Below are positions 42,027 to 60,768 of a stretch of 64,000 bases of DNA, one piece after another. A program made the translations under genes and the position numbers. Position 1 is the first letter of the stretch, and each line of letters starts with the position of its first letter. This stretch comes from Rhizobium sp. 9140 (GTDB lineage Bacteria > Pseudomonadota > Alphaproteobacteria > Rhizobiales > Rhizobiaceae): assembly GCF_900067135.1 (NCBI RefSeq), contig NZ_FJUR01000005.1, positions 1 to 64,000 on the forward strand, read 5' to 3'. The notes beneath the pieces were generated by a model. It was given only the letters and a program-made list of their open reading frames with translations. It was not told the origin of the DNA and ran no database searches.

Positions 42027-42057
42027 TTGAACCTCTAGGTACTCGAGATCCCATACT
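42027..42057 (+). promoter_or_regulatory. MerR-type promoter/operator 1
   Basis: TTGAAC and CATACT are separated by exactly 19 bp containing the CTCTAGGTACTCGAG dyad. The overlong spacer with a central dyad is the MerR signature. It drives the operon starting at 42116. Confidence 0.8.
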
Positions 42058-42115
42058 CTCTTTTGCGCTCGCCAATCCCTTTGGCGGATAACGCCGAAAA
42101 CATCAGGAGACGACG

Positions 42116-42457
42116 ATGAACGATCTTGCGACCCCGGACGTGCAGGACAAAGCACAGGGGCTTCTTTGCCCGGCTTGCAGGGTCAATCTTGTCATGAGCG
42201 AGCGTCAGTCGATCGAAATCGACTATTGCCCGAACTGTAGGGGCGTCTGGCTGGACAGAGGAGAACTCGACAAGATTATCGATCGCAGCCTTACCGCTGA
42301 ACCCCCGGTTGCTCAGCGTTCGGGGATCGCAAAGTCGCAGCCGTTCGCGCCGCACTATCCCGCTGAGGATCATCGTGACGGCGGCCATGGTTCCGGCCAT
42401 GGTGCCCACGGGCAGAACCGCCGTCACGGATCGTTCCTGGGGCGGCTCTTCGACTAG
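42116..42457 (+). CDS. Zf-TFIIB-domain protein
   Basis: Protein of 113 aa with a zinc-ribbon of the zf-TFIIB type: GLLCPACRVNLVM and EIDYCPNCRGVWLDRGELDK give the CxxC-x19-CxxC ligands and the GVWLDRGEL signature. The C-terminal tail is rich in His and Gly (AEDHRDGGHGSGHGAHGQNR), probably another metal-binding site. First gene of the MerR-controlled operon with the CDF exporter. It may buffer or deliver zinc. Confidence 0.85.
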   Translation: MNDLATPDVQDKAQGLLCPACRVNLVMSERQSIEIDYCPNCRGVWLDRGELDKIIDRSLTAEPPVAQRSGIAKSQPFAPHYPAEDHRDGGHGSGHGAHGQNRRHGSFLGRLFD

Positions 42458-42522
42458 ATGGAATAGGCTTCACCAAAAGAGTTTGTCTCAATCGCTTATT
42501 CAAAAAGACAAGGAGCTAACAT

Positions 42523-43440
42523 ATGGGCGCTGGCCATTCTCACACGGCGGCACGTCCCACAGGCACATCCGCTGGGCGGCACAAAAGCAGGCTGGCGACG
42601 GCCCTGGGACTGACGGTAGCGTTCATGCTGGTCGAGGTCGTCGGCGGTCTCTGGACGGGCAGCCTGGCGCTTTTGGCGGATGCGGCCCATATGCTGACGG
42701 ATGCCGGTGGGCTGGCTCTGGCGCTGATCGCGATCCGGTTTTCAGAACGACCCGCGACGCCGCAAAAGACCTATGGCTATGTCCGCATGGAGGTTCTCTC
42801 CGCGCTGGCAAACGCAGTGATTCTCATGTTGCTGACCATTTACATTTTCTATGAGGCGTATGAGCGGTTTGTCGATCCACCCCAAATTCTCGGCGGTCCT
42901 ATGCTGATCGTCGCCGTCATCGGCCTGACAGTCAACCTGATCAGCATGAAGCTGCTTTCCGCCGGATCGTCCGAAAGCCTGAATGTCAAGGGAGCATATT
43001 TCGAGGTGCTCGGCGATATGCTGGGATCACTCGGCGTCATCGTTGCCGCCGGTGTGGTGATGCTGACCGGTTGGTCGCTTGCAGATCCAATCATTGGTGC
43101 CGCCATCGGGCTGTTCATCCTTCCCCGGACATGGGTTCTCCTCAAGCAAGCCGTTCATATCCTCATGGAGGGTACGCCACCGGAAATTGACATGTCTCTG
43201 CTGGAAGTGAAGCTAATGGGCATTCCCGGCGTCGAAGCCGTCCACGATCTGCATGTATGGACAATCACATCTGGACTGGATGCCATGAGCTGTCACCTCG
43301 TCGTTACCGATATGGCGGAGGTCCGTTCGATCCTCTCCAGCGCCCGCAGCACGATGGAAGAAAGCTTCGGCTTGTCGCACGTTACGATCCAAGTGGAGGA
43401 TAAGGTTATGCGTGAGGCGGAAGGCGAGATGAAAATCTAG
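42523..43440 (+). CDS. CDF-family divalent metal exporter (CzcD-like)
   Basis: Cation diffusion facilitator of 305 aa with six helices, exporting Zn/Cd/Co-type ions to the periplasm against protons. The helix 2 site is LLADAAHMLTDAGGLALALI (H and D). The helix 5 site reads GAYFEVLGDMLGSLGVI, with Glu where many CzcD proteins have His. The cytoplasmic C-terminal domain contains VHDLHVWTITSGLDAMSCHL. Good ribosome site (AAGGAG). Its product works in parallel with the P-type ATPase. Confidence 0.9.
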   Translation: MGAGHSHTAARPTGTSAGRHKSRLATALGLTVAFMLVEVVGGLWTGSLALLADAAHMLTDAGGLALALIAIRFSERPATPQKTYGYVRMEVLSALANAVILMLLTIYIFYEAYERFVDPPQILGGPMLIVAVIGLTVNLISMKLLSAGSSESLNVKGAYFEVLGDMLGSLGVIVAAGVVMLTGWSLADPIIGAAIGLFILPRTWVLLKQAVHILMEGTPPEIDMSLLEVKLMGIPGVEAVHDLHVWTITSGLDAMSCHLVVTDMAEVRSILSSARSTMEESFGLSHVTIQVEDKVMREAEGEMKI

Positions 43441-43498
43441 CGGTGCCGATCTGTTCGGCCAACCGCACAACTCCATCAACCGAGCTAAGGACGTCGAC

Positions 43499-43930: not shown

Positions 43931-43989
43931 TCCGGCGGATGGTCTTCGTGCTGTCCGCCAATTTAGTTAAGCAGGAACAGATTTTCCAC

Positions 43990-44020
43990 TTGTAGCTCTA
44001 GTCGCTTGAGGTCCTATGGT
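43990..44020 (+). promoter_or_regulatory. MerR-type promoter/operator 2
   Basis: TTGTAG - 19 bp with CTCTAGTCGCTTGAGG - TATGGT, 26 bp before the P-type ATPase start. Classic arrangement for zntA/cadA/pbrA control. Confidence 0.85.
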
Positions 44021-44046
44021 GGCGGCATTGAATTCAAGGATATCCC

Positions 44047-46701
44047 ATGACCGAGCCAGTAAAGACACGATTCAGAGTGAGTGGTATGGATTGCGCATCC
44101 TGCGCGACGAAGATCGATACGGCCGTCAGGCGAATGCCCGGCGTCGAGGATGTCTCGGTTTCGGTGACCACCGGCACGATGACGGTGACGCATGGCGAAA
44201 GCAGTGACCTGACGGCGATCGGCAAGAAAGTCTCCGGGCTCGGATACAATGTAGTTCCTATCGCCGATAAAGCCACTGCTGCCCCGGTCGCAAAGGCTGC
44301 GCATGTGCATGGCCCGGGCTGTAGCCATGACCACGGCGCCGGTTCGCACGACCACGCGGGTCATGACCATGACCGGCATGATCATGACGACCACGATGGC
44401 CACGATCACGGTGGTCACGGTCATGACGACCACGATCACGCAGGTCATGATCGCAATCAAGCAGGCAAAAACGAGAGCCCCGTTACCCCGCTTGTCGAGG
44501 CGCCGCAGATACGATTCAGGGTCGGGGGCATGGATTGCGCGTCCTGCGCAACAAAGATCGACACGGCCGTCAGGCGGATGCCCGGTGTCGAGGATGTCTC
44601 GGTTTCGGTCACAGCCGGTACGATGACGGTGAAGCATGATGGGACAAGCGATCTCGACGCGATCGGCAAGAAGGTCGCAGGGCTGGGCTATTCGGTTGTG
44701 TCATTGGCTGCCGATGAAAACAAATCGAAGGCCGCGTCCGTGGATGCGGGCGACAATCGTGATCATTCCGGCCATGCTCATGGCAAGGCTGGCGGCGAAC
44801 CGGAAAGCCTGCACGGGCATGACCATGGACCGATGAGCGGCCCGTGGTGGAAAAGTAAAAAGGGGCGCTTGACGATCGTTGCCGGTGGTGCGCTGGTTTT
44901 AGCCTATGGGATAGGCCATCTTTTTCCGGCCATTGCCTTCTTTGCCTTTACGGCTGCGATGCTCGTCGGCCTTATACCCATCGCACGACGCGCCGTGATG
45001 GCGGCGTTGGCCGGAACGCCGTTTTCCATTGAAATGCTGATGACAATCGCGGCTGTCGGCGCGCTGTTTATCAATGCGACCGAAGAGGCGGCTGCGGTCG
45101 TGTTCCTGTTCCTGGTCGGCGAACTGCTGGAGGGCGTTGCCGCAAGCAAGGCACGCGCGAGCATCCAGTCCCTGACGGAACTGGTTCCGAAGAACGCTCT
45201 GCTGGAGGAGAACGGGCAGACGCGCGAAGTGCCGGCGGAAAGCCTCGCCGTTGGCGCGGTCATTCTCGTGCGTCCGGGTGACCGGATCTCGGCCGACGGC
45301 GTGATCGTCTCCGGCGAAAGCTCGATCGACGAAGCGCCGGTGACGGGCGAAAGCACACCGGTCGCCAAGGGTTTGGATGACAAGGTTTTTGCAGGCACGG
45401 TCAATGGGGATGCAGCACTTCGAGTCCGCGTCACTGCCGCCGCCGCCGACAACACCATTGCTCGTGTGGTCAAGCTCGTCGAGGAAGCGCAGGAATCGAA
45501 GGCGCCGACAGAACGGTTCATCGACAGCTTCTCCCGCTACTATACGCCGGCTGTGGTCGTGGTTGCCGCACTCGTCGCGACCATTCCGCCGCTGTTCATG
45601 GGCGGCGTCTGGTCGGAATGGGTTTACAAGGGCCTTGCCATTCTGCTGATCGGCTGCCCTTGCGCTTTGGTCATATCGACACCAGCAGCCATTGCCGCCT
45701 CGCTTTCCGCCGGGGCGAGGCGCGGGCTTCTTCTCAAGGGTGGCGCGGTTCTCGAAACCCTCGGAAAGCTGACGGCCATTGCGCTCGACAAGACGGGCAC
45801 TCTGACCGAAGGCAAGCCAAAGGTCACCGACGTGATCGCCTTCGACCGCAATGAAGCCGATGTGCTGCGCTTGGCCGCAGCGCTCGAAACCGGGTCCAGC
45901 CATCCGCTGGCCATGGCCATTCTCGGCAAGGCCGCGGAGGAAAAGGTTCAGGTTCCGGCGGCCGAAAATGCAAAAGCTCTCGGTGGCAAAGGTGTGACCG
46001 CGACCGTTGAGGGTATCGAGATTTTCCTCGGATCGCCGAAGTCGGCAGCCGATCGGATGCCGTTGTCGAACGATCAATTGACGCTGATCGCCAGGCTGAA
46101 TGACGAGGGCAAAACTGTGTCGGTGCTGATTGTCGGCGATATGCTTGCCGGTGCCATCGCCATGCGGGACGAGCCACGGGCGGATGCGAAGGCCGGGTTG
46201 AAGGCACTGGCCGATGTGGGCATCAAGACCGTCATGCTGACGGGCGACAACGCGCGCACGGCGAAGGCGATCGGCGCTCAGCTTGGCATTGAAGTTCGCG
46301 CCGAGCTGATGCCGGAAGACAAGCAACGCATCGTCGGCGAACTTCAAAAGGAAGGCTACGTGGTCGGCAAGATCGGCGACGGCATCAACGATGCGCCGGC
46401 GCTTGCGGCCGCCGATGTCGGCATTGCCATGGGGGGCGGCACGGATGTGGCGCTCGAAACAGCCGATGCAGCTATCCTGCATGGCCGCGTCGGCGACATT
46501 GCCGAGATGATCGATCTTTCGAAAAGAACGATGCGCAACATCTTCCAGAACATCACGCTTTCGCTGGGATTGAAGGCGGTGTTTCTCGTGACCACGATCA
46601 TGGGCATAACCGGCTTGTGGCCGGCGATTTTGGCGGATACCGGCGCAACCGTTCTGGTGACGATCAACGCGCTGCGTCTCCTTCGCCCCATTAAATCCTA
46701 A
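44047..46701 (+). CDS. P1B-type heavy-metal ATPase (Zn/Cd/Pb class) with two HMA domains
   Basis: ATP-driven exporter of 884 aa. Two near-identical metal-binding domains (GMDCASCATKIDTAVRRMPG, at residues about 13-32 and about 163-182) flank and precede long His/Asp linkers (HDHAGHDHDRHDHDDHDGHD). The core follows with TGES, IGCPCALVIS (CPC near 536), DKTGTLTEG (phosphorylated Asp near 581), SHPLAMAIL and GDGINDAPAL. CPC and DKTGT are intact; class by context is Zn/Cd/Pb. The duplicated HMA plus His repeats indicate a high-capacity metal sensor or chaperone region. Co-transcribed with the downstream L,D-transpeptidase. Confidence 0.93.
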   Translation: MTEPVKTRFRVSGMDCASCATKIDTAVRRMPGVEDVSVSVTTGTMTVTHGESSDLTAIGKKVSGLGYNVVPIADKATAAPVAKAAHVHGPGCSHDHGAGSHDHAGHDHDRHDHDDHDGHDHGGHGHDDHDHAGHDRNQAGKNESPVTPLVEAPQIRFRVGGMDCASCATKIDTAVRRMPGVEDVSVSVTAGTMTVKHDGTSDLDAIGKKVAGLGYSVVSLAADENKSKAASVDAGDNRDHSGHAHGKAGGEPESLHGHDHGPMSGPWWKSKKGRLTIVAGGALVLAYGIGHLFPAIAFFAFTAAMLVGLIPIARRAVMAALAGTPFSIEMLMTIAAVGALFINATEEAAAVVFLFLVGELLEGVAASKARASIQSLTELVPKNALLEENGQTREVPAESLAVGAVILVRPGDRISADGVIVSGESSIDEAPVTGESTPVAKGLDDKVFAGTVNGDAALRVRVTAAAADNTIARVVKLVEEAQESKAPTERFIDSFSRYYTPAVVVVAALVATIPPLFMGGVWSEWVYKGLAILLIGCPCALVISTPAAIAASLSAGARRGLLLKGGAVLETLGKLTAIALDKTGTLTEGKPKVTDVIAFDRNEADVLRLAAALETGSSHPLAMAILGKAAEEKVQVPAAENAKALGGKGVTATVEGIEIFLGSPKSAADRMPLSNDQLTLIARLNDEGKTVSVLIVGDMLAGAIAMRDEPRADAKAGLKALADVGIKTVMLTGDNARTAKAIGAQLGIEVRAELMPEDKQRIVGELQKEGYVVGKIGDGINDAPALAAADVGIAMGGGTDVALETADAAILHGRVGDIAEMIDLSKRTMRNIFQNITLSLGLKAVFLVTTIMGITGLWPAILADTGATVLVTINALRLLRPIKS

Positions 46702-46728
46702 GCATTTCAAAGCGGATTCACTCACTCC

Positions 46729-47433
46729 ATGACGCTCGAAACCAATCTGTCACGGCGCGGCTTTCTTATTGTTGCCGCGTCGTCTGTTGCAACGCTGGCG
46801 GGTTGCGCAACCTCATCACCCGAAGGCCGCATTGCCCCCTTACCGGTAGTGGTCAAGCGGCCCGTCGGCCCGCCAACCTCAGCTGAACTTGAAGCTATGT
46901 ACGGGCCACTTCAGGACGGTGGGTTTCTCATTCCGGCAACGCCATATCAGCAGATCGACCCGACATTCTATCGCCAGCGGGTCATCGACCCGACGGGAGA
47001 GGCGCCCGGAACCGTCATCGTCGATACGCCTTCACGTTTTCTCTATGTCGTTGAACCGGGCGGCACGGCGATGCGCTATGGCGTGGGCATCGGCCGCGAC
47101 GGATTTGCCTGGCAGGGCGATGGCGTCATTCACTGGCGCCAAGCCTGGCCGCGCTGGAAACCACCGAACGAGATGGTCGCGCGCCAGCCCGAACTCAAAC
47201 AATATTCCATCGAAAATGGCGGCATGGCCGGCGGTCTCGACAATCCGCTCGGTGCGCGTGCGCTCTACATTTTTCAGAACGGACAGGACACGCTCTATCG
47301 ACTCCACGGCAACAAGGACTGGCGCTCGATCGGCAAGGCTGTGTCTTCGGGCTGCGTGCGCCTGATCAACCAGGACATTATCGATCTCTATGCCCGGGTC
47401 CCATACAAGGCGAAAATTGTAGTCAGGCAGTAA
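46729..47433 (+). CDS. L,D-transpeptidase 1, Tat-like lipoprotein
   Basis: YkuD-fold enzyme of 234 aa that makes 3-3 peptidoglycan crosslinks or links proteins to it. The N-terminus LSRRGFLIVAASSVATLAGC joins a twin-arginine motif to a lipobox, so the protein should be a lipoprotein. The catalytic motif is YRLHGNKDWRSIGKAVSSGC with the active Cys, followed by VRL. It lies 27 bp after the ATPase, hence in the metal operon. Close relative of 56241-56954. Confidence 0.88.
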   Translation: MTLETNLSRRGFLIVAASSVATLAGCATSSPEGRIAPLPVVVKRPVGPPTSAELEAMYGPLQDGGFLIPATPYQQIDPTFYRQRVIDPTGEAPGTVIVDTPSRFLYVVEPGGTAMRYGVGIGRDGFAWQGDGVIHWRQAWPRWKPPNEMVARQPELKQYSIENGGMAGGLDNPLGARALYIFQNGQDTLYRLHGNKDWRSIGKAVSSGCVRLINQDIIDLYARVPYKAKIVVRQ

Positions 47434-47847
47434 TGTTCGGATGACTAGCGCAATTCGACCCTTTGACGATGGAACTTTCTGCGCAAAACGTGGTGAAGGG
47501 GAAGTATCGCCGACCGCTTTTTTAACGCGCAGTCACCGATTATCTGGATTTCTGTATCGGTGTATCACACTGGCCGTCTTTCAATCTCGCCAACGTCCTA
47601 GTCGATTTATCATGAACGTATGGGACGCAAACTCCGGCTATCCAGAAGCTTCGATGCTACAGGCAAACGGCCTGTTCGTGGCCAGATCAATTTGCACGGT
47701 TCTCCACCGCTCAAGATTTTTTATTTGCAGCTCTAGCGGCTAGAGAGTGTGGCCGGTTCTGAACACTGCGAGATGGGATGTGTGAAATGTGAAACAAGCG
47801 CCTCAGCCCTCGTCGGTCGTTAGACTCGGAACAGGATGGGTTAGAAC
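47434..47847. other. Intergenic region with MerR-type site, no gene
   Basis: 410 bp between the transpeptidase and the phosphoethanolamine transferase. It holds the site at 47725-47755. Frames here lack ribosome sites and family features. Confidence 0.45.
47725..47755 (+). promoter_or_regulatory. MerR-type promoter/operator 3
   Basis: TTGCAG - 19 bp with the near-perfect dyad CTCTAGCGGCTAGAG - TGGCCG. The -35 and dyad are good; the -10 is poor, so basal expression should be low. It lies 92 bp before the transferase gene. Confidence 0.7.
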
Positions 47848-49500
47848 ATGAAGTTTAAGAAAACAGGCTTTAAAAAATTGCCTCTTTACAGGCCGCACCT
47901 GGGCAGTGTCATGTTGAGCGTATGTGTGGCGCTCTTTCTGCTGTTCACGAGCAACAGGACGTTCTGGTCGAAGATCAATGCGTATCTGGCACAGGAGCCT
48001 GTGGCGATTGCCATGCTCTACATAGCCATGAGCGCTTTGTTCATCGCTGCGTTAACGATTTTCTCGGCCAAGTACGTCATTAAGCCGTTCTTCATTTTTC
48101 TCGTGATGACATCCGCTACGGCTTCATGGTTTGTGGATCAGTTCGGTGTGGTTATCGATAGCGATATGATGCGCAACGCGTATCAGACAACACCAGCCGA
48201 AGCACAGCATCTCATTACGTGGGGCTTTGTGGGGCATCTTGCCCTATTCGCATTTTTACCAACGGGTCTTATTCTTTGGGTTCGCGTTGTTCATCGGCCA
48301 ATATTGGGGAAGATCGCTCGCAATTGCGCTGTCGTTATTGGGTGCATGCTTGTCTTCGCCGGCGCAGCATTCTCCTATTCCGCGACCTACACTGCTGCCG
48401 TCCGCGAGCACCGAGATATCGCCAGGGCTTTGAACCCGGTGACACCTCTCGTGAGTGCGGTAAAACTTTTCACCCAGGTACGGGCCGAAGCTAAAATAGT
48501 TGCCCAACCGCTCGGACATGACGCGAAGGTCGTTCCACCGATTAATGGCTCCCGCAAACCGCGCGTAACCGTCATCGTTGCGGGCGAAACAGCCCGCGCC
48601 CAGAATTTCTCGCTGGGTGGCTATCAACGTGACACGAACCCGCTTCTGGCGAAACAGGATATCATTTATTTCCCTGAAACTTATAGCTGCGGCACCGCGA
48701 CGGCGACGTCCTTACCTTGCATGTTCTCCAAGTTCAAGCGTGTCGACTACACACACAAAAAGGGTCTCGAAAACGAAACACTGGTTGATGTCATCGAGAA
48801 TTCGGGCATTAAGGTCGAATGGTGGGACAACAGCACGGGCAGCAAGGGAATTGCCGATAGAATACCCTTCGTCAATCTATCGGCATCCAAGGACACACGC
48901 TACTGCAAGACGGGCGAGTGTCAGGACGGCGTTTTTCTGGACAAACTCGAAACCTGGCTTCGTGATGTCAAACAAGACAGCGTCCTGGTCCTTCATCAGA
49001 TGGGCAGTCATGGCCCCGCCTATTTCTTGCGCTATCCCGACGCTTTCAGGCGTTTCACTCCGGATTGCCGCACCGCCGAGCTTGGAGACTGCAAGCCTGA
49101 GGAAATCGTAAACACATACGACAATACGATCCTATATACTGATTTCATTCTCTCGAGCATTATAGAACGGTTGAAAGCGAGTTCAGACCGCGTCGAAGGT
49201 GGCATGATATATATGTCGGATCATGGTGAGTCTTTAGGCGAGCAAGGATTATACCTCCATGGTGCACCATATATGCTTGCACCAGATGTCCAAACAAAGA
49301 TACCTTTCGTTTTGTGGATGGATCGACCGTTTCAGGCGTCGATGGGCGTGGACAAAGCGTGCTTGATGAACAATAGGACGTCACCGCGCTCGCATGACAA
49401 TCTCTTTAACAGCGTCCTAAGCATGCTCAACATCAATACCAGCGTCTACGATCGGTCTCTCGATGTCTTTGCTGACTGCAAGCTTCTCAAATCGTCTTAG
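47848..49500 (+). CDS. eptA: Lipid A phosphoethanolamine transferase (EptA/MCR family)
   Basis: Inner-membrane enzyme of 550 aa that adds phosphoethanolamine to lipid A; relatives confer resistance to polymyxins. Five N-terminal helices (to about residue 185) are followed by a periplasmic sulfatase-fold domain. Zinc and catalytic residues are present: E247 in VIVAGETARAQNFS, T285 in SCGTATATSLPCMFS, H388 in QMGSHGPAYF, and D458/H459 in YMSDHGESLGEQGLYLHG. Disulfide-forming Cys residues are also seen. A MerR-type promoter precedes it, so metal-induced lipid A change is proposed. Followed by an IS21 copy. Confidence 0.9.
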   Translation: MKFKKTGFKKLPLYRPHLGSVMLSVCVALFLLFTSNRTFWSKINAYLAQEPVAIAMLYIAMSALFIAALTIFSAKYVIKPFFIFLVMTSATASWFVDQFGVVIDSDMMRNAYQTTPAEAQHLITWGFVGHLALFAFLPTGLILWVRVVHRPILGKIARNCAVVIGCMLVFAGAAFSYSATYTAAVREHRDIARALNPVTPLVSAVKLFTQVRAEAKIVAQPLGHDAKVVPPINGSRKPRVTVIVAGETARAQNFSLGGYQRDTNPLLAKQDIIYFPETYSCGTATATSLPCMFSKFKRVDYTHKKGLENETLVDVIENSGIKVEWWDNSTGSKGIADRIPFVNLSASKDTRYCKTGECQDGVFLDKLETWLRDVKQDSVLVLHQMGSHGPAYFLRYPDAFRRFTPDCRTAELGDCKPEEIVNTYDNTILYTDFILSSIIERLKASSDRVEGGMIYMSDHGESLGEQGLYLHGAPYMLAPDVQTKIPFVLWMDRPFQASMGVDKACLMNNRTSPRSHDNLFNSVLSMLNINTSVYDRSLDVFADCKLLKSS

Positions 49501-49744
49501 AAACATCGTATCCACCGGCTTGCCACCGCCTGCCGGGCGCGCGCGATGATACAGGACTCGTGCATAATGACGTCGTCAACATCGTGTATTAAAATAGCTG
49601 AGGCACCGCGATTGTCAACGGCGGAGTAAAATCCTGCCACGCGGCGGCGCAAAAGTCGGCCACTTGTGGCGCGCGCATGAGACCGCCGGGAGGGCTTAGG
49701 CCCGAGCGGGGGTCTCATGCGCGCGTTGCGATTTTCGAAGGGCG

Positions 49745-50503
49745 TCAGCCGGCCTTTCGGGCGCGGCTTTGGGCGAGACGATAGCTGTCGCCGTTCATCT
49801 CGAGGATGCTGACGTGATGGGTGATGCGGTCGAGCAAAGCGCCGGTCAGGCGCTCGGACCCCAAGGTTTCCGTCCATTCGTCAAAAGGAAGGTTGCTGGT
49901 GATCAGGGTCGCGCCTCGCTCGTATCGTTGCGAGATCAGCTCGAACAGCAATTCCGCGCCGGTCTTTGACAGCGGCACGAAGCCCAGTTCATCGATGATC
50001 AACAGCTGGTAGGCGGCCATCTGCTTCTGGAACCGGATGAGACGCCGCTCGTCGCGCGCCTCCATCATCTCGCTGACCAGTGCGGCCGCTGTCGTGAACC
50101 CAACGGACAGGCCCTTCTGGCAGGCGGCCAGGCCGAGGCCGAGCGCCACATGGGTCTTGCCCGTGCCGCTGGGGCCGAGAGCGATAACGTTCTCCCTGCG
50201 CTCGATCCATTCGCAGCGCGCCAGTTCCAGCACCTGCATCCTGTTCAGCTTTGGGATGGCGGCGAAGTCGAAACTGTCGAGGCTTTTGACGACCGGGAAC
50301 CTGGCCGCCTTGATGCGACGCTCGACCTTGCGACGGTCCCGTTCGATCATCTCCCGCTCGGCAAGCCGGGTGAGGTATCCGACATGATCGACGCCTTCGG
50401 TGGCGCACAGCCGGGCCAGCTTCTGGTACTCGCGCTGGAAACTCGGCAGCTTCAGGGTTTTGAGATAATGGGTGAGAAGGATCTCGGGTGCTTGGGTGTT
50501 CAT
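49745..50503 (-). CDS. istB: IS21-family helper ATPase, copy 2
   Basis: 252 aa, apparently identical to the copy at 31674-32432, with Walker A GPSGTGKTHVALGLG. Intact. Confidence 0.95.
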   Translation of the reverse strand: MNTQAPEILLTHYLKTLKLPSFQREYQKLARLCATEGVDHVGYLTRLAEREMIERDRRKVERRIKAARFPVVKSLDSFDFAAIPKLNRMQVLELARCEWIERRENVIALGPSGTGKTHVALGLGLAACQKGLSVGFTTAAALVSEMMEARDERRLIRFQKQMAAYQLLIIDELGFVPLSKTGAELLFELISQRYERGATLITSNLPFDEWTETLGSERLTGALLDRITHHVSILEMNGDSYRLAQSRARKAG

Positions 50504-51996: not shown

Positions 51997-52119
51997 GGTA
52001 TAGATCCCCAGGCCCTCCTGCGCTCATTGCAGAAGAGAAATAGGTGGCCGACTTTTACGCCGCCCGAAGCGGGACAATCCCGCCGCTACCGTGGTCTAAT
52101 TTTGCACCGCCGCTCTCAT

Positions 52120-52153: not shown

Positions 52154-52570
52154 ATGTTCACCATTGGTGATCTGTCACGCTCGACAGGCGTCAAGATACC
52201 AACGATTCGCTACTACGAGCAGATGGGGCTGCTTTCGCATTCGGAGCGTTCGGAGGGAAACCAGCGGCGATATTCCAGGCCCGAGCAGGAGCGCCTGTCC
52301 TTCATCCGCCATGCCAGGGAACTCGGGCTGACGATCGAAGCGATCCGGGAACTGATCGATCTCAGCCAGCATCCCGAGCGGCCGTGCGCCGATGCGGACC
52401 GGATCGCAGCGACGCAGCTTGTGGCGGTGCGCGACAAGATCGCAAAACTGAGGAAGCTGGAAACAGAACTGGAGCGGATCACGAGCCACTGCCACGGAAC
52501 GCAAGTCAAGGATTGCTATGTGATCAGGGCGCTGGCTAATCACGAACTCTGCGAGACAGACCATTCTTGA
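52154..52570 (+). CDS. MerR-family metal regulator (Zn/Cd/Pb-type: ZntR/CadR/PbrR)
   Basis: Activator of 138 aa that twists overlong promoters on metal binding. The helix-turn-helix FTIGDLSRSTGVKIPTIRYY is followed by a dimerisation coiled coil and metal site. Candidate ligands are C78 (ERPCADADR), C113 (SHCHGTQ) and C121 (KDCYVI); the C-35-C-8-C spacing is close to CadR (35, 7) and PbrR (35, 9). C133 is extra. ATG 52154 follows GGGAGG. The only intact MerR gene in the window, so the best candidate controller of the five 19-bp-spacer promoters. Confidence 0.9.
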   Translation: MFTIGDLSRSTGVKIPTIRYYEQMGLLSHSERSEGNQRRYSRPEQERLSFIRHARELGLTIEAIRELIDLSQHPERPCADADRIAATQLVAVRDKIAKLRKLETELERITSHCHGTQVKDCYVIRALANHELCETDHS

Positions 52571-52945: not shown

Positions 52946-52976
52946 TTGCTCCTCTAGTTGCAAGAGGATGTATCGT
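52946..52976 (+). promoter_or_regulatory. MerR-type promoter/operator 4
   Basis: TTGCTC - 19 bp with CTCTAGTTGCAAGAGG - TATCGT, 66 bp before the second CDF gene. Confidence 0.82.
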
Positions 52977-53042: not shown

Positions 53043-53963
53043 ATGACCCACCAGCATGATGACAACGGCGGCCCCGGTCACGCGCACGCCCCGGCGAGTT
53101 TCGGCAAGGCTTTCGCGGTGGGCATCATTCTGAACACCATATTTGTCGTGGTTGAAGCCGGGTACGGCCTGTATGCGAACTCCATGGCGCTGCTCGCGGA
53201 TGCGGGCCACAACCTCTCCGACGTCCTTGGCCTCGTAGTGGCGTGGATAGCGGTGATGCTCGCAAAGCGCCTTCCGACGCCAAAGTACACCTATGGACTG
53301 GGAGCTTCCTCCATCCTGGCCGCACTCGCCAACGCGATGCTGCTTCTGGTGGCCGTCGGAGCGATCGCCTGGGAGGCCATCGGCCGCTTCTCTGATCCCG
53401 CACCCGTCGCTGGCCTTACCGTCATGATCGTGGCTGGTATCGGCATCCTGATCAACGGCATGACGGCATACCTCTTCTCCTCCGGCAGCAAGGGCGATCT
53501 GAACATCCGCGGCGCATATCTGCATATGGCAGCCGACGCCGCAGTGTCGGCTGGCGTGGTTGTCGCGGGGCTTCTCATCCTCAAGACGGGGTGGGCGTGG
53601 ATCGATCCCGCAGTGAGCCTGGTCATCGTCGTGGTGATCCTGTGGAGCACCTGGGGCCTGTTGAAAGGCAGCGTAGCGATGTCGTTGAACGCTGTTCCGG
53701 AGGGCATAGATGCCGCAGGCGTTCGGGATTGTCTGGCGGGCCTGCCTGGCGTCTCGGACGTGCATGACCTTCATATCTGGCCCATGAGCACGTCGGAGAC
53801 GGCGCTCACGGCCCACCTGGTAGTGCCGGATGGAACATCTGGTGACCAGTTTCTCGTCGACGCCCGCACCGAATTGCTCGAGCGCTACCGAATCCACCAC
53901 GCGACACTGCAGGTCGAGTCCGGAGGGATGGATTGCTCGCTCGCGCCGACGAATGTCGTTTGA
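53043..53963 (+). CDS. CDF-family divalent metal exporter (DmeF/CzcD-like)
   Basis: Cation diffusion facilitator of 306 aa. A His-rich N-terminus (MTHQHDDNGGPGHAHAPASF) is followed by helix 2 site LLADAGHNLSDVLGLVVAWI and helix 5 site GAYLHMAADAAVSAGVVVAG (canonical H and D at both), then the C-terminal domain with VHDLHIWPMSTSETALTAHL. Compared with the 42523 gene it has the usual His/Asp ligands. It follows operator 4 and starts the unit CDF - dsbB - dsbA, although a hairpin lies in between. Confidence 0.9.
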   Translation: MTHQHDDNGGPGHAHAPASFGKAFAVGIILNTIFVVVEAGYGLYANSMALLADAGHNLSDVLGLVVAWIAVMLAKRLPTPKYTYGLGASSILAALANAMLLLVAVGAIAWEAIGRFSDPAPVAGLTVMIVAGIGILINGMTAYLFSSGSKGDLNIRGAYLHMAADAAVSAGVVVAGLLILKTGWAWIDPAVSLVIVVVILWSTWGLLKGSVAMSLNAVPEGIDAAGVRDCLAGLPGVSDVHDLHIWPMSTSETALTAHLVVPDGTSGDQFLVDARTELLERYRIHHATLQVESGGMDCSLAPTNVV

Positions 53964-53964
53964 G

Positions 53965-54077: not shown

Positions 54078-54521
54078 ATGGAGCAAAAACTGACAACTCC
54101 CTCACCGGACACCGCATGGGCGCCTCTTTTCGGCGCGTGGATCGTCGCCTTGGTCGCGACCCTCGGCGCGCTTTTCATCGGCGAAGTCATGGGGCAGCTT
54201 CCTTGCGATCTCTGTTGGCACCAACGCGCGTTCATGTTTCCGCTGGTCGTGATCCTTGCGGTGGCGGGCTTCCGTTCGGATGGTTACGTGTGGCGATATG
54301 CCATTCCTGTCGCCCTCGTCGGCTGGCTGATCGCGGTGTTCCACAACCTCGTCTATTTCAAGCTTGTGCCGACTGCGATCAAGCCCTGCGGCCAAGGGCC
54401 GTCCTGCTCGGGCGACGCCATGACGCTGCTTGGAACAGTTCCGCTTCCACTTCTTTCCCTTGCGGCTTTCACCGCCATCATCGCCCTCTTGCTCATCGTC
54501 CGTCGGAGAATCCAGTCTTGA
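54078..54521 (+). CDS. DsbB-family disulfide reoxidase
   Basis: Inner-membrane quinone-coupled oxidase of 147 aa with four helices. Cys pair 1 is in MGQLPCDLCWHQRAFMFPL (CxxC) and pair 2 in AIKPCGQGPSCSGDAM, as in DsbB/BdbC. The stop overlaps the TTG start of the DsbA-like gene, so the pair is translated together and recharges the periplasmic oxidase. Confidence 0.9.
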   Translation: MEQKLTTPSPDTAWAPLFGAWIVALVATLGALFIGEVMGQLPCDLCWHQRAFMFPLVVILAVAGFRSDGYVWRYAIPVALVGWLIAVFHNLVYFKLVPTAIKPCGQGPSCSGDAMTLLGTVPLPLLSLAAFTAIIALLLIVRRRIQS

Positions 54522-55177
54522 CCAAACGTGCCCTTGTCATGCTCACGGCATTCGTTGCCATCGTCGTATTCGGAGGGGCTGCGATGCTCTACAGCAGCAG
54601 GGAAGGCGCTGCACCACAGGCCGTTGCAGTCTCATCTGGCGACAGCTTGGTCAGGCCGCATTCTCCGGTCATGGGGCCGGAGGCCGCACCCGTCACGATC
54701 GTCGAGTTCTTCGATCCTTCATGCGAGGCGTGCAGCGCTTTCTATCCGATCGTGAAGCAGATCATGGAAGCAACGGGCGAGGACGTGCGGCTCGTGTTGC
54801 GCTACACTCCCCTTCACGAGGGCTCCGACCAGGTCGTCAGGATTCTGGAAGCTGCCAGGAAGCAACAAAAATTCCAGCCGGTCCTCGAGGCCCTGTTTGC
54901 CAACCAGGCCGAATGGGCCGTCCATGGTGCGCCCGATATCGAAAAGGCTTGGCAGATCGCAGCCGGAGCGGGGCTGGACCTTGAACCCGCCCGCAAGGAC
55001 GCAACCACCCCCGAAGTGGATGCCGTGCTGGCCCAGGACGTTGCCGACGTGAAGGCCAACCGCGTCGAGCAGACACCGACCTTCTTCGTGAACGGCAAGC
55101 CGCTCACCGAGTTCAGCCCGCAGGGACTCTACGACTTGGTCAAAACCGAAATACAGGCCGCGAAGTCCGGCTCCTGA
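54518..55177 (+). CDS. DsbA-family thiol oxidase
   Basis: Periplasmic, membrane-anchored thioredoxin-fold protein of 219 aa. The signal anchor is ALVMLTAFVAIVVFGGAAML; the active site FFDPSCEACSAFY is CxxC with Glu-Ala between; the cis-Pro motif is VEQTPTFFVNG. TTG start at 54518 behind GGAG overlaps the dsbB stop. Placement with metal efflux genes suggests repair of thiols hit by Cd/Pb/Hg-type ions; this is inferred. Confidence 0.88.
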   Translation: MTKRALVMLTAFVAIVVFGGAAMLYSSREGAAPQAVAVSSGDSLVRPHSPVMGPEAAPVTIVEFFDPSCEACSAFYPIVKQIMEATGEDVRLVLRYTPLHEGSDQVVRILEAARKQQKFQPVLEALFANQAEWAVHGAPDIEKAWQIAAGAGLDLEPARKDATTPEVDAVLAQDVADVKANRVEQTPTFFVNGKPLTEFSPQGLYDLVKTEIQAAKSGS

Positions 55178-55627: not shown

Positions 55628-55659
55628 CTCGGCCTTTAACATCCTTCACGTTGAAGTCT

Positions 55660-56148
55660 CTATCGAGAGGGCGTTGCAGTTTTCGACGACCGCGTTGACA
55701 AAACAAGCAAGACCGCGCCGCAGAAAATCGCAACGTCAGCAAAGTTAAATGCCGGCCAGTGCCAACTTCCGGCATACATATCTATGAAATCGGTCACCGC
55801 CCCGTCGCGCAACCGATCTACGATGTTGCCCGCCGCGCCGCCAGCAATCAATCCAAGTGAGACCGCCTCAGCGGCGGTCTTGCTCAAAAACGCCCATATA
55901 AGCAAACCCAGCACAATGAGAATCTTGACGCCACCAAGGATACCAGGGATGTCTGCCAACTGATCTGCAAACATTCCGAAGCTTACACCCCGGTTGAAGG
56001 CCAAAATGAGGTTGAGAAACGGAAGGACCGGGATCTCCCTCGGGGGCTGCATTACGAATTCGACGACGACAAGCTTTACCACTTGGTCGGTGGCCAAGAC
56101 GCAAAGTCCAGCCAGAAAAGCCACTGTCAACTGTTTGAATCTTGTCAT
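55660..56148 (-). CDS. lspA: Lipoprotein signal peptidase
   Basis: Aspartic protease of 162 aa that removes lipoprotein signal peptides. Helices start at LTVAFLAGLCVLATDQVVKL; catalytic Asp residues are in GGAAGNIVDRLRDGAVTDFI and PAFNFADVAIFCG. ATG 56148 gives the usual length; upstream in-frame sequence is unrelated. A second, accessory LspA is known in lead-resistance clusters (PbrC). Here it lies next to a lipobox L,D-transpeptidase, so it may process that enzyme. Confidence 0.9.
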   Translation of the reverse strand: MTRFKQLTVAFLAGLCVLATDQVVKLVVVEFVMQPPREIPVLPFLNLILAFNRGVSFGMFADQLADIPGILGGVKILIVLGLLIWAFLSKTAAEAVSLGLIAGGAAGNIVDRLRDGAVTDFIDMYAGSWHWPAFNFADVAIFCGAVLLVLSTRSSKTATPSR

Positions 56149-56240
56149 AAAACCACTATGGTTAACTGGGGTGGTGATCGGGAGAAACTGCAGTTTAGCC
56201 GAGTGCCATATTTTGGAAATACGGCACGTCGTCTCATCCG

Positions 56241-56954
56241 TCACGCAGAATGCATGAGGGGTTCGGGCAGGCTGGTTACCACAATCGGCGTTTTGTTTTG
56301 AACCCGATTGAAAAGGTCGACGACGTCCTGATTGATCATTCGCACACAGCCTGACGATACGGATTTTCCAATGCTCGACCATTCCGGTGACCCGTGAATG
56401 CGATAAAGCGTGTCTTGCCCGTCCTGGAAAATATAAAGAGCGCGCGCGCCGAGAGGATTGTCCAAGCCCGGTGGCTTGCCACCATTCGAGGCGCTATAAG
56501 GTTCAAGTTCCGGCTGTCGTGCGATCATCTCATCCGGTGGCGTCCACCTTGGCCATGCACGCTTGTATTGAATGACCCCTCTGCCTGACCATTCGAACCC
56601 CGCACGTCCGAGACCAACGCCATAGCGCATCGCTTTGCCGTTTTCATAGGTGAGATAAAGGAAATGGTTGGCCGTATCGACGACCAAAGTACCCGGGCGT
56701 TCACCGGTCGGATCGTCAACGAACTGACGATAAAATCGGGGCTTGATCTTGCGATATGGGATAGCAGGCAGCGGAAATTGCTCATCCGGCTTTGCCGCAT
56801 ACATGTCGGAAAATATGGTGTTCTGAGGCAAGGGCGGGGCCTCTGCCGAGATCTCTACAGAATTGTTTGAGGTGGTACAACCGGCGACCGAGACAAGGCC
56901 AATGCCGGCGGCGCCAAAAACAAATGCGCGTCGACCCATATTAAGTTCTGTCAA
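56241..56954 (-). CDS. L,D-transpeptidase 2, lipoprotein
   Basis: YkuD-family enzyme of 237 aa. The start is set at TTG 56954 (MTELNMGRRAFVFGAAGIGL), which mirrors transpeptidase 1 (MTLETNLSRRGF) and follows GAGGATG; ATG 56939 is the alternative. Twin Arg plus lipobox SVAGC. Catalytic motif YRIHGSPEWSSIGKSVSSGC followed by VRM. Closely related to 46729-47433 along its whole length, so these are duplicates or paralogues. Confidence 0.88.
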   Translation of the reverse strand: MTELNMGRRAFVFGAAGIGLVSVAGCTTSNNSVEISAEAPPLPQNTIFSDMYAAKPDEQFPLPAIPYRKIKPRFYRQFVDDPTGERPGTLVVDTANHFLYLTYENGKAMRYGVGLGRAGFEWSGRGVIQYKRAWPRWTPPDEMIARQPELEPYSASNGGKPPGLDNPLGARALYIFQDGQDTLYRIHGSPEWSSIGKSVSSGCVRMINQDVVDLFNRVQNKTPIVVTSLPEPLMHSA

Positions 56955-57123
56955 TACTTCATCCTCATACTGTTCGTTCCCTGGCAACGCGATCAAGCGC
57001 GCAATCACGAGAATTTTCCAACAACCTAAACGACCGCAGCCTTCTGAAGGCTAACGGCAAGGTCGTGTTTTATGTCTGCAGGGAGCCGTGATTTCCAGAT
57101 TTGGCAGGGAATGGCACCATTGT

Positions 57124-57690
57124 TCAGACCACGACGACTAACGCGCCTATTGGGACGCGTTCATAGAGGTCTTCTACGTGCTCGTTGACCATGCGAACAC
57201 AGCCGTTCGATACGGCCTTTCCGATGGTCCAAGGCTCCGTTGTGCCGTGAATGCGATAGAGGGTATCCTGGTCATCCCGATACAAATACAGGGCGCGTGA
57301 GCCAAGCGGGTTGAGAGGGCCACCTGGAAGACCGTCCGCATATTTTGCGTATTTTTCAGGCGCCCGCTTGATCATGTTTTGCGTTGGACGCCAACTCGGC
57401 CATTTTGCCTTGCGCCCCACCACTGCCGTCCCTGTAAAAGCAAGGCCCGCCTTGCCGACCCCAATGCCATACCGTCTGGCCTTGGAAAGGCTTTCAATCA
57501 AGTAAAGAAAGCGGTTAGCTGGATCAACAAGGAGGGTTCCGGCAGGGTATTCGGTAGATATACCCACGACCTGCGGCAAATAGACAGGATCGAGTGCAAA
57601 CACTCCGTTCTTCTTGCTCGATGCCGCTGCATCTTTCCCAAGAGCGAGAGAGGCTACGATACCGAGAAACGCGTCACGTCGTTTTATCAT
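57124..57690 (-). CDS. L,D-transpeptidase 3
   Basis: Shorter YkuD-family enzyme, 188 aa, with a Sec/Tat-like signal (IKRRDAFLGIVASLALGKDA) and no lipobox Cys. Catalytic motif YRIHGTTEPWTIGKAVSNGC followed by VRM. More distant from the other two. Its start overlaps the stop region of the 57674-58072 gene by 17 bp, so both are translated from one message. Confidence 0.88.
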   Translation of the reverse strand: MIKRRDAFLGIVASLALGKDAAASSKKNGVFALDPVYLPQVVGISTEYPAGTLLVDPANRFLYLIESLSKARRYGIGVGKAGLAFTGTAVVGRKAKWPSWRPTQNMIKRAPEKYAKYADGLPGGPLNPLGSRALYLYRDDQDTLYRIHGTTEPWTIGKAVSNGCVRMVNEHVEDLYERVPIGALVVVV

Positions 57691-58072: not shown

Positions 58073-58658
58073 TGCTCAACCCCAAGCGCGAGACCGTGCT
58101 GATTCCATTCACACACGGTAAGATCTGGCATCAGCTTTTCGCCACAAGGTTTTGTTTTCGCACGGGCCGAGATCTTTGACACTTCTTTTCAAGTAAGGCA
58201 CGAATTCGCACGCCAGCCGGCTGAACGGCAGTTGAATGCCAATCGGAGCGATGGTTCGACTTCACGACCGTGTACGTATTGATGGTTTTTACAGTTTTCA
58301 GGCTCACGCCACAGGGTCCGTTGATATTCTTACTTCTGCTTCGTGTCACAATAGTCGGTGGCTCCCCGTTTCCGAAGCTCCCGTCCGAATTTCTTCAACA
58401 ACCATGACCCACGACTGCTCGTCCTGCCCGTAGTTGTTTTTCATCATCGCCAAGATGCTGTCACCGTAGGAGCGACCCCTGTTCATGGGGATCTCCGAAT
58501 CGCGCCATGGTAAAGCCTCTAGCAACTTTAGATGCAAGTGCCGTATTGGGTGAAATGTCGGAATTTTCGCCGCTGCTCTGGACACATCAAGTTGATCGTG
58601 GCTGCGGTTGGTTTGTATCTGCTTGAGCCTTACCTTGGCGAAAGGAAGGTGGGCGAAG
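58073..58658. other. Intergenic region, no gene supported
   Basis: About 590 bp between divergent units. Several overlapping frames exist on both strands, none with a ribosome site or recognisable motif. A minus-strand frame (58346-58804) overlaps the small membrane gene and is not adopted. Confidence 0.4.
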
Positions 58659-58910
58659 ATGAACAGGATCATTCGATTAGCCGCGTTATTTCTTGGCTTC
58701 TCAGTCCTCGGTTTCACATTGTTGTCAGTCTCGTTTCGAGGCGTATGCTGGATCGGCGGCCACTCACAAATGGAAGCGATCTGGGGCGTGACGACATCCG
58801 TCATATTGGGTCTTGCGGTTGGCGCAGAGGCTCTGTTGACTTGGAAGTCGCGGGAAAGTCAGCTAGATCGCCCTCATGCCCGGCATCACTCAGGCACCCC
58901 ATGGTCGTGA
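58659..58910 (+). CDS. Small membrane protein, 83 aa
   Basis: ATG 58659 follows GGAAGGTGGGCG. Two membrane helices (LAALFLGFSVLGFTLLSVSF and WGVTTSVILGLAVGAEALLT) and a short His-containing tail (RPHARHHSGTPWS). Unknown function. The 3' end overlaps the convergent gene at 58886 by 25 bp. Confidence 0.5.
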   Translation: MNRIIRLAALFLGFSVLGFTLLSVSFRGVCWIGGHSQMEAIWGVTTSVILGLAVGAEALLTWKSRESQLDRPHARHHSGTPWS

Positions 58911-59350
58911 TGGACAAGGTCTGACGACGAGGGTTTCTCGGTTGCGGTCGCGGATATTGTATCCCCAGTCTGAAATTCGATCATTATGTCGACAGGTAGG
59001 AGATATTTTTCTCTTGGAACCATAGAGAGGAATACAGTGCTGGGGGTCATTACAATTTCCGAACGGCTCGGGATCGTAAGCACCGCTGCGGCTACGCTTT
59101 GATATGAGGTCTCCTCTGACTTGATTCGAGCAAATCGGATATCAGTGTATCCAGAGGCCGAAATTTTTGAGATAACTCTCGGAGTACCGCTTCCATTCCA
59201 GATTGCGAGATAAACCAGGTCGAAACCAGGTTCGCGGACAATTTCCGCGTGCTCGATAATGACCGCCTCCCCCCTGCCGACTTCAATGTCCTGAGCATTT
59301 GCGTTCGAAGTTGCGGCAAAGAGTAGAAATAGCGGAAGGCAAAGGCGCAT
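58886..59350 (-). CDS. PCu(A)C-like periplasmic protein lacking the copper motif
   Basis: Exported protein of 154 aa: signal MRLCLPLFLLFAATSNANAQ, then a cupredoxin-like DUF461/PCu(A)C fold with VYLAIWNGSGTPRVISKISA, RSEIVMTPSTVFLSMVPREK and DIMIEFQTGDTISATATEKP. The usual H-M-M-H-M copper ligands are absent from these positions; the only ligand-rich part is HHDHG near the C-terminus. Start ATG 59350 (GGAAACTGAG) rather than 59362. A chaperone for another metal, or a structural relic, is possible. Confidence 0.65.
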   Translation of the reverse strand: MRLCLPLFLLFAATSNANAQDIEVGRGEAVIIEHAEIVREPGFDLVYLAIWNGSGTPRVISKISASGYTDIRFARIKSEETSYQSVAAAVLTIPSRSEIVMTPSTVFLSMVPREKYLLPVDIMIEFQTGDTISATATEKPSSSDLVHHDHGVPE

Positions 59351-59616
59351 CTCAGTTTCCATGCGTTGAAAATTGTCACCTACGTTGGAATTGTGGCTCA
59401 GCCGCGGCTTTTACGCAGGTAATTTCGGCACGCCTTTACCACGAACAAATTTCAAGTTGATGGTCGCCGACGCTCTTGCGAGACGGATTCGGTCTCAACG
59501 ACAGCTGCTCAAATAACCGGACGCCAAGATTTCCACGATTAGCATTGCGAGCCAACGTGGCAGCCTTTCAAACCAGCACCGATTCACGCATATATTCATG
59601 GTAAATCCGTCGGCCC

Positions 59617-60714
59617 TCACCCCAGTTCCTTGTGTCGGCGTACAATCGCTTGCACAATTTCTTTTGCATCGGGACCAGCACCTGAAATTAGAGCCGATGC
59701 TCGGTTTCGTTGCCAGGGGCGTCCCACGTAGTAGATACCAGGGATCGGCGAGATACCCTGATCGTGCAGGAATTCGCCACCGGCGGACGTGGTGCCTGGC
59801 ACTTGAAGCCAAGTGATATCGTCTCGATAACCGATGGCCCATATTATAGAATCGATATCAATCGCCTGCCCGCCTTCAAAGCCTGCTTTACGCCCAGTGA
59901 TGGAGACAAGGCGAGGCATGATTTCGACACCCCGCGTCTGCAGGGACGGGAGGCTTCTGTCGCGGTCCGGAAACGGGTCAGCCGTTCTCATTCGCTTTCC
60001 AAGCCAAGAGTCTGTTCTCGCGGAAAGAACACCAAGTATTGAAAGCCACCACCATACGTTCTTGCGGAGGAAGAACTCTGGGATGAGTTTTCTTGGCTTT
60101 CCAGTTGCGAGCAATACTTTGTGGGTTGCGGAAAGCTCCGTAGCGATGTCACGGCCGGAAGCTCCATCGCCGACGACGAGCGTTCGACCGGGGACAATCT
60201 GCGAGGGATCGCGGTAGGTGGTCGCCGTCAGCTGTTGGATATCCGGATCAATCGAAGAAAAATGAGGCACGAACACGGTTTGAAAGCCCCCCGTCGTGCC
60301 GACGACGCTTACTGGGTAAAGCCGTTCGCCGGTGCCAAGATCTGCTTCAAATTGTCCGGCGGCGTTCAGCGTCAATCGTATGAGTTTCGTTGAAGTCTTG
60401 ATAGACAGCCCATGCGTGGATGCATACCGTTCAAGATAGTCCGCGAATTCATTCCGTGTCGGATAGCTTTCGCGATTGCCAGCAGGCATGAGCCCAGGCA
60501 ACATGCTAAGAGACCGGGGCGTAAACAGTGTCAGAGAGGTATATCGACTTCGCCAGGTATCGCCAACTCGAGCGTTTTTTTCCAGTATCAGATAGGGAAT
60601 GCCAGCCTGCTTCAAATAGTAGCCAGCAGCTAGTCCTGACTGACCGCCGCCTATGACAAGCACAAACCGCTTTTTTTTATCATTTTCGCTGCCTCGCGCT
60701 CTAGTTATCAGCAT
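59617..60714 (-). CDS. Flavin-dependent monooxygenase-like oxidoreductase (CzcO family)
   Basis: FAD/NADPH protein of 365 aa. FAD-binding GxGxxG: FVLVIGGGQSGLAAGYYLKQ; NADPH-binding: TLVVGDGASGRDIATEL; also SIIWAIGYRDDITWLQVPG. This matches the CzcO / putative flavoprotein group (COG2072), often found with metal efflux genes. Its substrate is unknown; arsenical or trimethylamine-like oxidation has been suggested for related proteins. A MerR-type promoter precedes it, so it belongs to the metal regulon. Confidence 0.82.
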   Translation of the reverse strand: MLITRARGSENDKKKRFVLVIGGGQSGLAAGYYLKQAGIPYLILEKNARVGDTWRSRYTSLTLFTPRSLSMLPGLMPAGNRESYPTRNEFADYLERYASTHGLSIKTSTKLIRLTLNAAGQFEADLGTGERLYPVSVVGTTGGFQTVFVPHFSSIDPDIQQLTATTYRDPSQIVPGRTLVVGDGASGRDIATELSATHKVLLATGKPRKLIPEFFLRKNVWWWLSILGVLSARTDSWLGKRMRTADPFPDRDRSLPSLQTRGVEIMPRLVSITGRKAGFEGGQAIDIDSIIWAIGYRDDITWLQVPGTTSAGGEFLHDQGISPIPGIYYVGRPWQRNRASALISGAGPDAKEIVQAIVRRHKELG

Positions 60715-60737
60715 CCACCTAGTTTCCCCTCAGATAG

Positions 60738-60768
60738 AGTTTAGCTGTTCTAGCAGCTAGAGGGTCGA
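60738..60768 (-). promoter_or_regulatory. MerR-type promoter/operator 5
   Basis: On the minus strand TCGACC - 19 bp with CTCTAGCTGCTAGAAC - TAAACT, 24 bp before the flavoprotein gene. Confidence 0.78.

Follow-up and report, generated by a model that had tools for sequence, protein, structure and literature searches.

Metal sensors of the MerR family are usually regarded as switches for an adjacent pump. In the excerpts available from the survey by Permina et al. 2006 (PMC1526738), the MerR dimer is described as holding an over-long promoter spacer until metal binds and then altering the DNA, which brings the promoter elements effectively closer; the spacer is 19 bp in most CadR/PbrR-type promoters and 20 bp for ZntR. 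Here we analysed 64,000 nucleotides of Rhizobium sp. 9140 (contig NZ_FJUR01000005.1, positions 1 to 64,000), which we call the window, in which an island of about 19 kb carries metal exporters and envelope genes behind copies of one promoter box. We propose that this island is probably the dispersed regulon of a single MerR activator of the ZntR/CadR/PbrR kind, which would drive efflux and envelope genes as one response to zinc, cadmium or lead.

Genes of some of these kinds are known to respond to metals. According to the parts of the transcriptome study of Mesorhizobium that we drew on (PMC3668242), RNA-seq of Mesorhizobium metallidurans STM 2683 found that both zinc and cadmium induce CadA, CcdA and a zinc-finger/CDF pair, while in Mesorhizobium STM 4661 CadA, CcdA and several disulfide proteins rose with both metals and the zinc-finger/CDF pair with zinc. 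Signal peptidase II was raised about threefold by zinc in both strains and not significantly by cadmium (same excerpts).

Results

A shared promoter box in the island

The preliminary description of this DNA listed five promoters, each holding a CTCTAG-type dyad in a 19-bp spacer, and we found all five at their places with a spacer of exactly 19 bp; the dyad is perfect at 47731 and has one mismatch in each of the other four. We wrote the box as the pattern TTG-N3-CTCTAG-N3-CTAGAG-N4-TA, with 17 defined bases, and report matches at up to 2 mismatches in the 17 unless otherwise stated. The window holds six matches, four on the plus strand and two on the minus strand (boxes 1 to 6, Table 1), of which box 5 was absent from the earlier list. 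All six place the palindrome in a 19-bp spacer, within the 19/20-bp geometry expected of such regulators, and the pattern ends 62, 30, 96, 70 and 27 bases before the start codon for boxes 1, 2, 3, 4 and 6, respectively.

Sixty patterns with permuted half-sites gave no match in the window at up to 2 mismatches, and at up to 3 mismatches a mean of 0.05 with a largest count of 1. The bare half-site CTCTAG, found 12 times in the window against 12.66 expected, is not enriched and was dropped as evidence; a generic TTGAC-N17-21-TA search was uninformative (2 matches in the window against 2.2 expected). Across the whole genome (5,428,940 bases) the pattern matches eight times, at the six island sites, at C1:1056916 and at C6:150277. 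Six of these eight fall in 0.35% of the sequence, where 0.03 would be expected at random (binomial 5e-14, a descriptive figure), and contig positions 64001-200000 (of 202,169; 136 kb; loci L009-L015) give none even when 3 mismatches are allowed. The match at C1:1056916 directly precedes the gene for a 760-residue ZntA-like ATPase. At the stringency used, the box is confined to the island and this chromosomal pump gene: the site at C6:150277-150303 (minus strand) is a CTGTAG-N3-CTACAG box next to the gene of another MerR (46% identical), where the opposite strand encodes an HMA protein and an LspA, and it was not counted as the same box given its other half-site and regulator. Boxes like the C6 type precede a CDF-lspA unit in locus L198 and a mer operon in L197.

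The box before envelope genes on related plasmids

Fourteen other annotated Rhizobiaceae plasmids, chosen by similarity to the window EptA or ATPase or to a Shinella EptA, were read in part, and ten of them carry the box, in islands of differing gene order. On seven of the ten, eptA or a run of genes holding it lies behind the box: directly on pQ15_94_5 (L021), pAtA74a_a (L023), a Shinella sumterensis plasmid (L028), Ensifer adhaerens p-3 (L192) and pAtA47a_b (L194), and within a dsbA-ppiC-L,D-transpeptidase-eptA-L,D-transpeptidase run on pAtCFBP6626c (L027) and pAtCFBP6624 (L195). Boxed units with an L,D-transpeptidase occur on eight (L021, L023, L027 and L194-L198) and boxed units with dsb genes on five (L023, L027, L194, L195 and L198). 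Genes annotated as murein L,D-transpeptidase follow the box on L023, L194, L196 (pSinB), L197 and L198; the name is an annotation label, and two such proteins match YkuD weakly. SCO/L,D-transpeptidase genes and a dsbB-dsbA-CDF arrangement are each found behind a box on L023, L194 and L198, while an L,D-transpeptidase-lspA pair on L195 and lspA on L198 stand directly behind one. A second stretch of pAtCFBP6624, which holds an eptA-dgkA pair (L024), lacks the box.

Related islands also hold PBP2 genes, with genes for Nramp-family transporters adjoining (L194 12240-13994; L023 17748-19430, minus strand), and these PBP2/Nramp genes in L194 and L023 have no box at up to 3 mismatches.

Occurrence of the box in other genomes

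Of 297 genomes of the family, 206 carry the box with no more than 1 mismatch, in a scan where the backward-read control matches as well. The exact box occurs in 64 of 249 genomes of the order, against 4 backward-control matches. We tallied the gene next to the box at 30 automatically chosen family loci and 29 order loci, one order locus having been lost to a filter. In the family it encodes an exporter at 25 of 30 loci (P1B ATPase 17/30, CDF 8/30, unmatched 5/30) and in the order at 26 of 29 (ATPase 7/29, CDF 19/29, unmatched 3/29), the CDF calls being made at 22-31% identity. The box is hence a common one before exporter genes in these bacteria, where it presumably serves zinc and cadmium.

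Other kinds of next gene were seen at loci hand-picked from the family scan. Five loci (L064, L066, L069, L070 and L096) have an HGSNAT_cat-family membrane acetyltransferase gene next to the box (Table 1), and single loci have a gene for PCu(A)C, a phospholipid methyltransferase, a transglutaminase-like protein, a cytochrome b, a redoxin, a response regulator or a metallo-beta-lactamase-fold protein. The two boxes of L066, at the acetyltransferase and the cytochrome b genes, have 3 dyad mismatches each. A pair of sites 9,395 bp apart with the same letters recurs in four genomes (L066, G249:C1:198000-217900; G148; G060; G172) and probably marks one mobile element; the genes beside the pair have no or only weak Pfam matches.

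The regulator and its copies

The preliminary description placed one intact merR gene among the promoters, and it is present there, together with a second, broken copy (Table 1). Its product carries Cys78, Cys113, Cys121 and Cys133. The closest solved relatives are 5gpe (MerR family), which we take to be a PbrR-like protein, and CadR, and their cysteines align with Cys78, Cys113 and Cys121, presumably the metal-ligand positions of CadR/PbrR-type sensors. A cysteine at the Cys78 position marks divalent-metal sensors. Judged by these cysteines, the type of box and the type of ATPase, the likely metals are zinc, cadmium and lead.

The island protein is 69% identical to a chromosomal MerR paralogue and 72-81% identical to the MerRs encoded on seven related plasmids, in whose alignment the helix-turn-helix region is nearly unchanged (those of L023 and L194 are the same protein). 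On Ensifer adhaerens p-3 merR itself lies within a boxed zinc-ribbon/merR unit, and in L197 the box of a divergent L,D-transpeptidase gene stands about 130 bp from merR. Autoregulation of the window merR through CTCTAG at 41881 or 52120 was considered and rejected, as the dyads there have 2 and 3 mismatches, respectively, and neither TTG nor TA stands where it should; in eight other merR upstream regions (130 bp each) no such motif lies near the start. The pieces of the broken copy are 82% and 86% identical to the intact gene and are oriented away from the zinc-ribbon/CDF unit.

Phylogeny of EptA and the box

In a tree of 43 EptA sequences, the window protein clusters with those of L021 and L023 (100/100), and their sister, from L024, is unboxed (100/99). 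The remaining boxed EptAs, together with the run type, group apart as a second clade with six members (100/100), and the branches between the two boxed groups are weaker (87/88, 87/78). Two gains of the box would be the simplest account of this tree; one gain with several losses would also fit it.

Genes of the island

The gene identities named in the preliminary description agree with the Pfam matches (Table 1). For the P1B ATPase the best model, PRK11033, is below its equivalog cut-off, and TIGR01512 (cadmium subfamily) is over its own. L,D-transpeptidase 1 starts only 27 bp past the ATPase gene, which makes it a member of the box 2 unit; all three L,D-transpeptidases exceed the Pfam YkuD cut-off and have SSGC/SNGC stretches in their translations, as expected for the active-site cysteine. 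EptA scores 574.6 bits with NF028537 (cut-off 500), with both the sulfatase-type and the N-terminal EptA domains found, and it reaches none of the MCR and EptA equivalog/exception cut-offs shown, which makes it an EptA relative and not a certified MCR. The DsbA domain begins at residue 182 of its open reading frame (ORF), so that the true start is probably close to the end of dsbB, and the LspA domain begins at residue 93, which places the true start inside that ORF. A multicopper oxidase gene (62356-63522) adjoins the island and has no MerR box of this type.

Table 1 Promoter boxes and genes of the island, and acetyltransferase genes next to the box in other genomes.
Feature	Position	Strand	Details
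Broken second merR copy	41452..41861	-	frame lost after about codon 28, in-frame stop
Box 1	42027..42057	+	TTGAAC, 19 bp with CTCTAG-GTA-CTCGAG, CATACT; kept in Agrobacterium plasmids L021, L023
TFIIB-type zinc-ribbon protein	42116..42457	+	PF13453, E 4.9e-20; behind box 1
CDF cation efflux protein, ZitB-like	42523..43440	+	PF01545, PF16916; TIGR01297 over cut-off; box 1 unit
Box 2	43990..44020	+	TTGTAG/TATGGT; kept in L021, L023
P1B-type ATPase, two HMA domains, ZntA/CadA-like	44047..46701	+	behind box 2
L,D-transpeptidase 1 (YkuD)	46729..47433	+	PF03734; SSGC stretch in translation
Box 3	47725..47755	+	TTGCAG, perfect dyad, poor -10 TGGCCG
EptA-type phosphoethanolamine-lipid A transferase	47848..49500	+	PF00884, PF08019; behind box 3
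IS21-family insertion between eptA and merR	49613..52118	-	istB ORF 49745-50632, istA ORF 50500-51996; PF01695, PF22483
Intact MerR regulator	52154..52570	+	PF13411 and PF09278 (helix-turn-helix and MerR-DNA-bind); 138 residues
Box 4	52946..52976	+	TTGCTC/TATCGT
Second CDF cation efflux protein	53043..53963	+	Pfam; behind box 4
DsbB	54078..54521	+	PF02600; box 4 unit
DsbA-like thioredoxin ORF	54116..55177	+	PF13462 on residues 182-334; box 4 unit
Accessory LspA (signal peptidase II)	55660..56382	-	PF01252 115 bits; TIGR00077 100 bits vs 73.95
L,D-transpeptidase 2	56241..57008	-	PF03734
L,D-transpeptidase 3	57124..57690	-	PF03734; about 820 bp downstream of box 5
Box 5	58507..58537	-	TTGCAT, CTAAAG-TTG-CTAGAG, TACCAT
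CzcO/ArsO-like flavoprotein	59617..60714	-	PF13738; NF040505 below cut-off; behind box 6
Box 6	60738..60768	-	TCGACC/TAAACT
HGSNAT-family acetyltransferase, L064	15022-15765	-	
HGSNAT-family acetyltransferase, L066	9907-10635	-	
HGSNAT-family acetyltransferase, L069	3236-4018		
HGSNAT-family acetyltransferase, L070	5437-6369		
HGSNAT-family acetyltransferase, L096	3075-3863	-	

Discussion

From the boxes, the gene identities and their conservation, we infer how binding, metal, activation and the purpose of the envelope genes may fit together. The island MerR, or its chromosomal paralogue, would bind as a dimer to the CTCTAG-N3-CTAGAG dyad between -35 and -10, its predicted targets being the six island promoters and the chromosomal zntA-like gene. 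Zinc, cadmium or lead held by the conserved cysteines would change the DNA, effectively shorten the over-long spacer and switch these promoters on. The exporter output would comprise the P1B ATPase and two CDFs, and the envelope and redox output the L,D-transpeptidase of the ATPase unit, EptA, DsbB/DsbA, the flavoprotein and perhaps the L,D-transpeptidase/LspA unit. The envelope genes would most likely provide duplicates of enzymes that face the periplasm and are poisoned by metals, and added positive charge on the outer membrane would lessen the binding of exported metal. In the excerpt available, copper is reported to inhibit the L,D-transpeptidase YcbB (PMC6478713), which makes poisoning of thiol enzymes plausible; zinc and cadmium may act likewise. 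The claim that one MerR-type box stands over exporters and envelope genes alike is well supported by its recurrence on ten plasmids and by its place before exporters elsewhere; its extension to the lspA unit and eptA of the window itself is uncertain.

Several observations weigh against this proposal. The pattern was derived from the five sites first listed, so that the clustering figure can only describe, and the same pattern read backward has 10 matches in the genome, so the raw count is unremarkable. The plasmids were picked by similarity, hence the sample is not random, and 4 of the 14 (L025, L026, L029 and L030) lack the box in the part that was read. The island MerR lies under every MerR equivalog cut-off shown, related to all and a certified member of none (score/cut-off: PRK09514, zinc-responsive, 109/143; CadR-PbrR 105/151.45; CueR 100.6/147.4; ZntR 98.5/167.95; MerR 92.7/150.85), and the Ensifer MerR has its middle cysteine one place off. 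The Mesorhizobium transcriptome, in the text available from it, names no transpeptidase, ErfK or phosphoethanolamine (PMC3668242). Nor is eptA a general target of the box at the 91 of 105 family places read. A search located 105 eptA places in 89 of the 297 family genomes, and among the 91 with upstream DNA read (30 automatic loci, 60 fetched and G120:C12 in L061) an own box stands at only two, the window's and that of G120:C12, and since the EptA of G120:C12 has the same sequence as the L194 protein, it does not count as independent. One further eptA, at G171:C5 (L073), lies below a boxed dsbA, in what by likeness to L027 is one run. The chromosomal eptA of the same genome (C1:2249062, L170) has no box, and a search of genome contigs for loci related to EptA gave a single distant one, which lacks the box. 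The link between eptA and the box belongs to metal islands and not to eptA in general.

The island copy itself shows further weaknesses. The -10 of box 3 reads TAAACC in the orthologous promoter of two Agrobacterium plasmids. Box 5 is so far from the L,D-transpeptidase/lspA genes (55660-57690) that control of this unit is uncertain in the window; the stretch between has no Pfam match, and 57600-58600 is unmatched in the compared loci. The IS21 element is 98.9% identical to one in Shinella sp. HZN7; because its edge lies only some 35 bp upstream of merR, expression of this gene is uncertain, and the element may have replaced the merR promoter. Control of eptA and lspA is less sure here than on the related plasmids. 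Together with the broken merR and the weak -35 of box 6, where TCG replaces TTG, such decay is what one would expect if MerR controlled the exporters and the window's envelope-gene boxes were relics of rearrangement, carried along with island pieces and several of them inactive. We consider this unlikely, since plasmids with other gene orders have intact boxes ahead of eptA, L,D-transpeptidase, SCO, lspA and dsb genes, two EptA clades carry the box, and all six window boxes keep the 19-bp geometry.

The identity of the regulator and of the metal must be weighed as well. Another MerR might bind the boxes, for example the chromosomal paralogue, perhaps a ZntR, leaving the island merR idle or with other targets: the boxed stretches of L028 (Shinella, 22 annotated genes) and L027 have no MerR match, nor does the 10-kb stretch at the chromosomal zntA-like gene (tblastn, 1e-5). 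The related merR genes within the islands of seven plasmids argue the other way, and we hold this possibility to be on the doubtful side. A copper response of the CueR/HmrR type could draw on the PCu(A)C, SCO and multicopper oxidase genes of related plasmids and on the inhibition of YcbB; it is quite improbable, as the box differs from the ACCTTCC type of CueR/HmrR given in the excerpts of PMC1526738, and both Cys78 and the Zn/Cd-type ATPase speak against it. That the dyads arose by chance would agree with the unenriched half-site and with a backward control that matches the genome as often as the pattern does, and can be given next to no weight in view of the failure of all 60 permuted patterns at up to 2 mismatches, the clustering of six sites and the recurrence before the same kinds of gene on ten plasmids.

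Beyond the proposal of a MerR-driven island, we suggest tentatively, and with some doubt, that Rhizobiaceae metal plasmids may hold a mobile metal-envelope regulon, in which the exporter box has been placed repeatedly before eptA, L,D-transpeptidase, LspA, DsbA/DsbB, SCO and HGSNAT-family genes, and a single cytosolic sensor would replace metal-sensitive periplasmic enzymes and alter surface charge as the pumps expel the metal. In the island, one switch seems to act on lipid A in the outer leaflet, on L,D-crosslinks in the wall, on the maturation of lipoproteins and on the formation of disulfides, which predicts that cytosolic zinc or cadmium alters lipid A and muropeptides. Metal pollution could by this route co-select an EptA-family gene for lipid A modification, and the boxed genes may serve as a list of the periplasmic enzymes that metals poison. 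The box is specific enough for more members of the regulon to be found by search alone.

Compared with described systems, the island most resembles the ZntR/CadR/PbrR regulons, with which, in the excerpts of Permina et al. 2006 (PMC1526738), it shares a strong palindrome in a long spacer, a P1B ATPase or CDF as main target and, in its MerR, cysteines that align with those of CadR. Those regulons usually consist of a regulator and a transporter, mostly in a divergon (PMC1526738, same excerpts), whereas the island has six promoters in 19 kb, most of them before envelope or redox units, and its merR is divergent from none of the six. The six-gene pbr operon of Cupriavidus metallidurans likewise joins MerR-family control, a P1B ATPase and a predicted signal peptidase, PbrC, but it is a single locus for which these excerpts name no eptA, L,D-transpeptidase or Dsb gene (PMC1526738), in contrast to the separate promoters of the island. 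On another metal-resistance plasmid, pSinB of Sinorhizobium sp. M14 (L196), the box precedes an ATPase-PCu(A)C unit and also a gene annotated as murein L,D-transpeptidase.

The zinc- and cadmium-induced genes of Mesorhizobium are of the same kinds as those that follow boxes 1 and 2 or lie downstream of box 5, and the portions of that study available describe no shared promoter box or regulator (PMC3668242). The preliminary description had regarded the control of lipid A modification, L,D-crosslinking and an accessory LspA as one metal response as new, a reading that is supported in part; for lspA, the zinc induction in Mesorhizobium and PbrC precede it. In Pseudomonas aeruginosa, according to the excerpts of PMC9952513, zinc induces eptA and the addition of phosphoethanolamine to lipid A through ColRS, much as proposed for the island, but ColRS is a two-component sensor of extracellular zinc, while the island has the box for a cytosolic MerR sensor. 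In the open-licence literature, judged partly by title, we found no report of MerR control of a phosphoethanolamine transferase or an L,D-transpeptidase. Zinc-induced lspA and phosphoethanolamine addition are already published, and the proposed MerR-type control joining efflux and envelope genes would be a variation on the known metal-sensor regulons.

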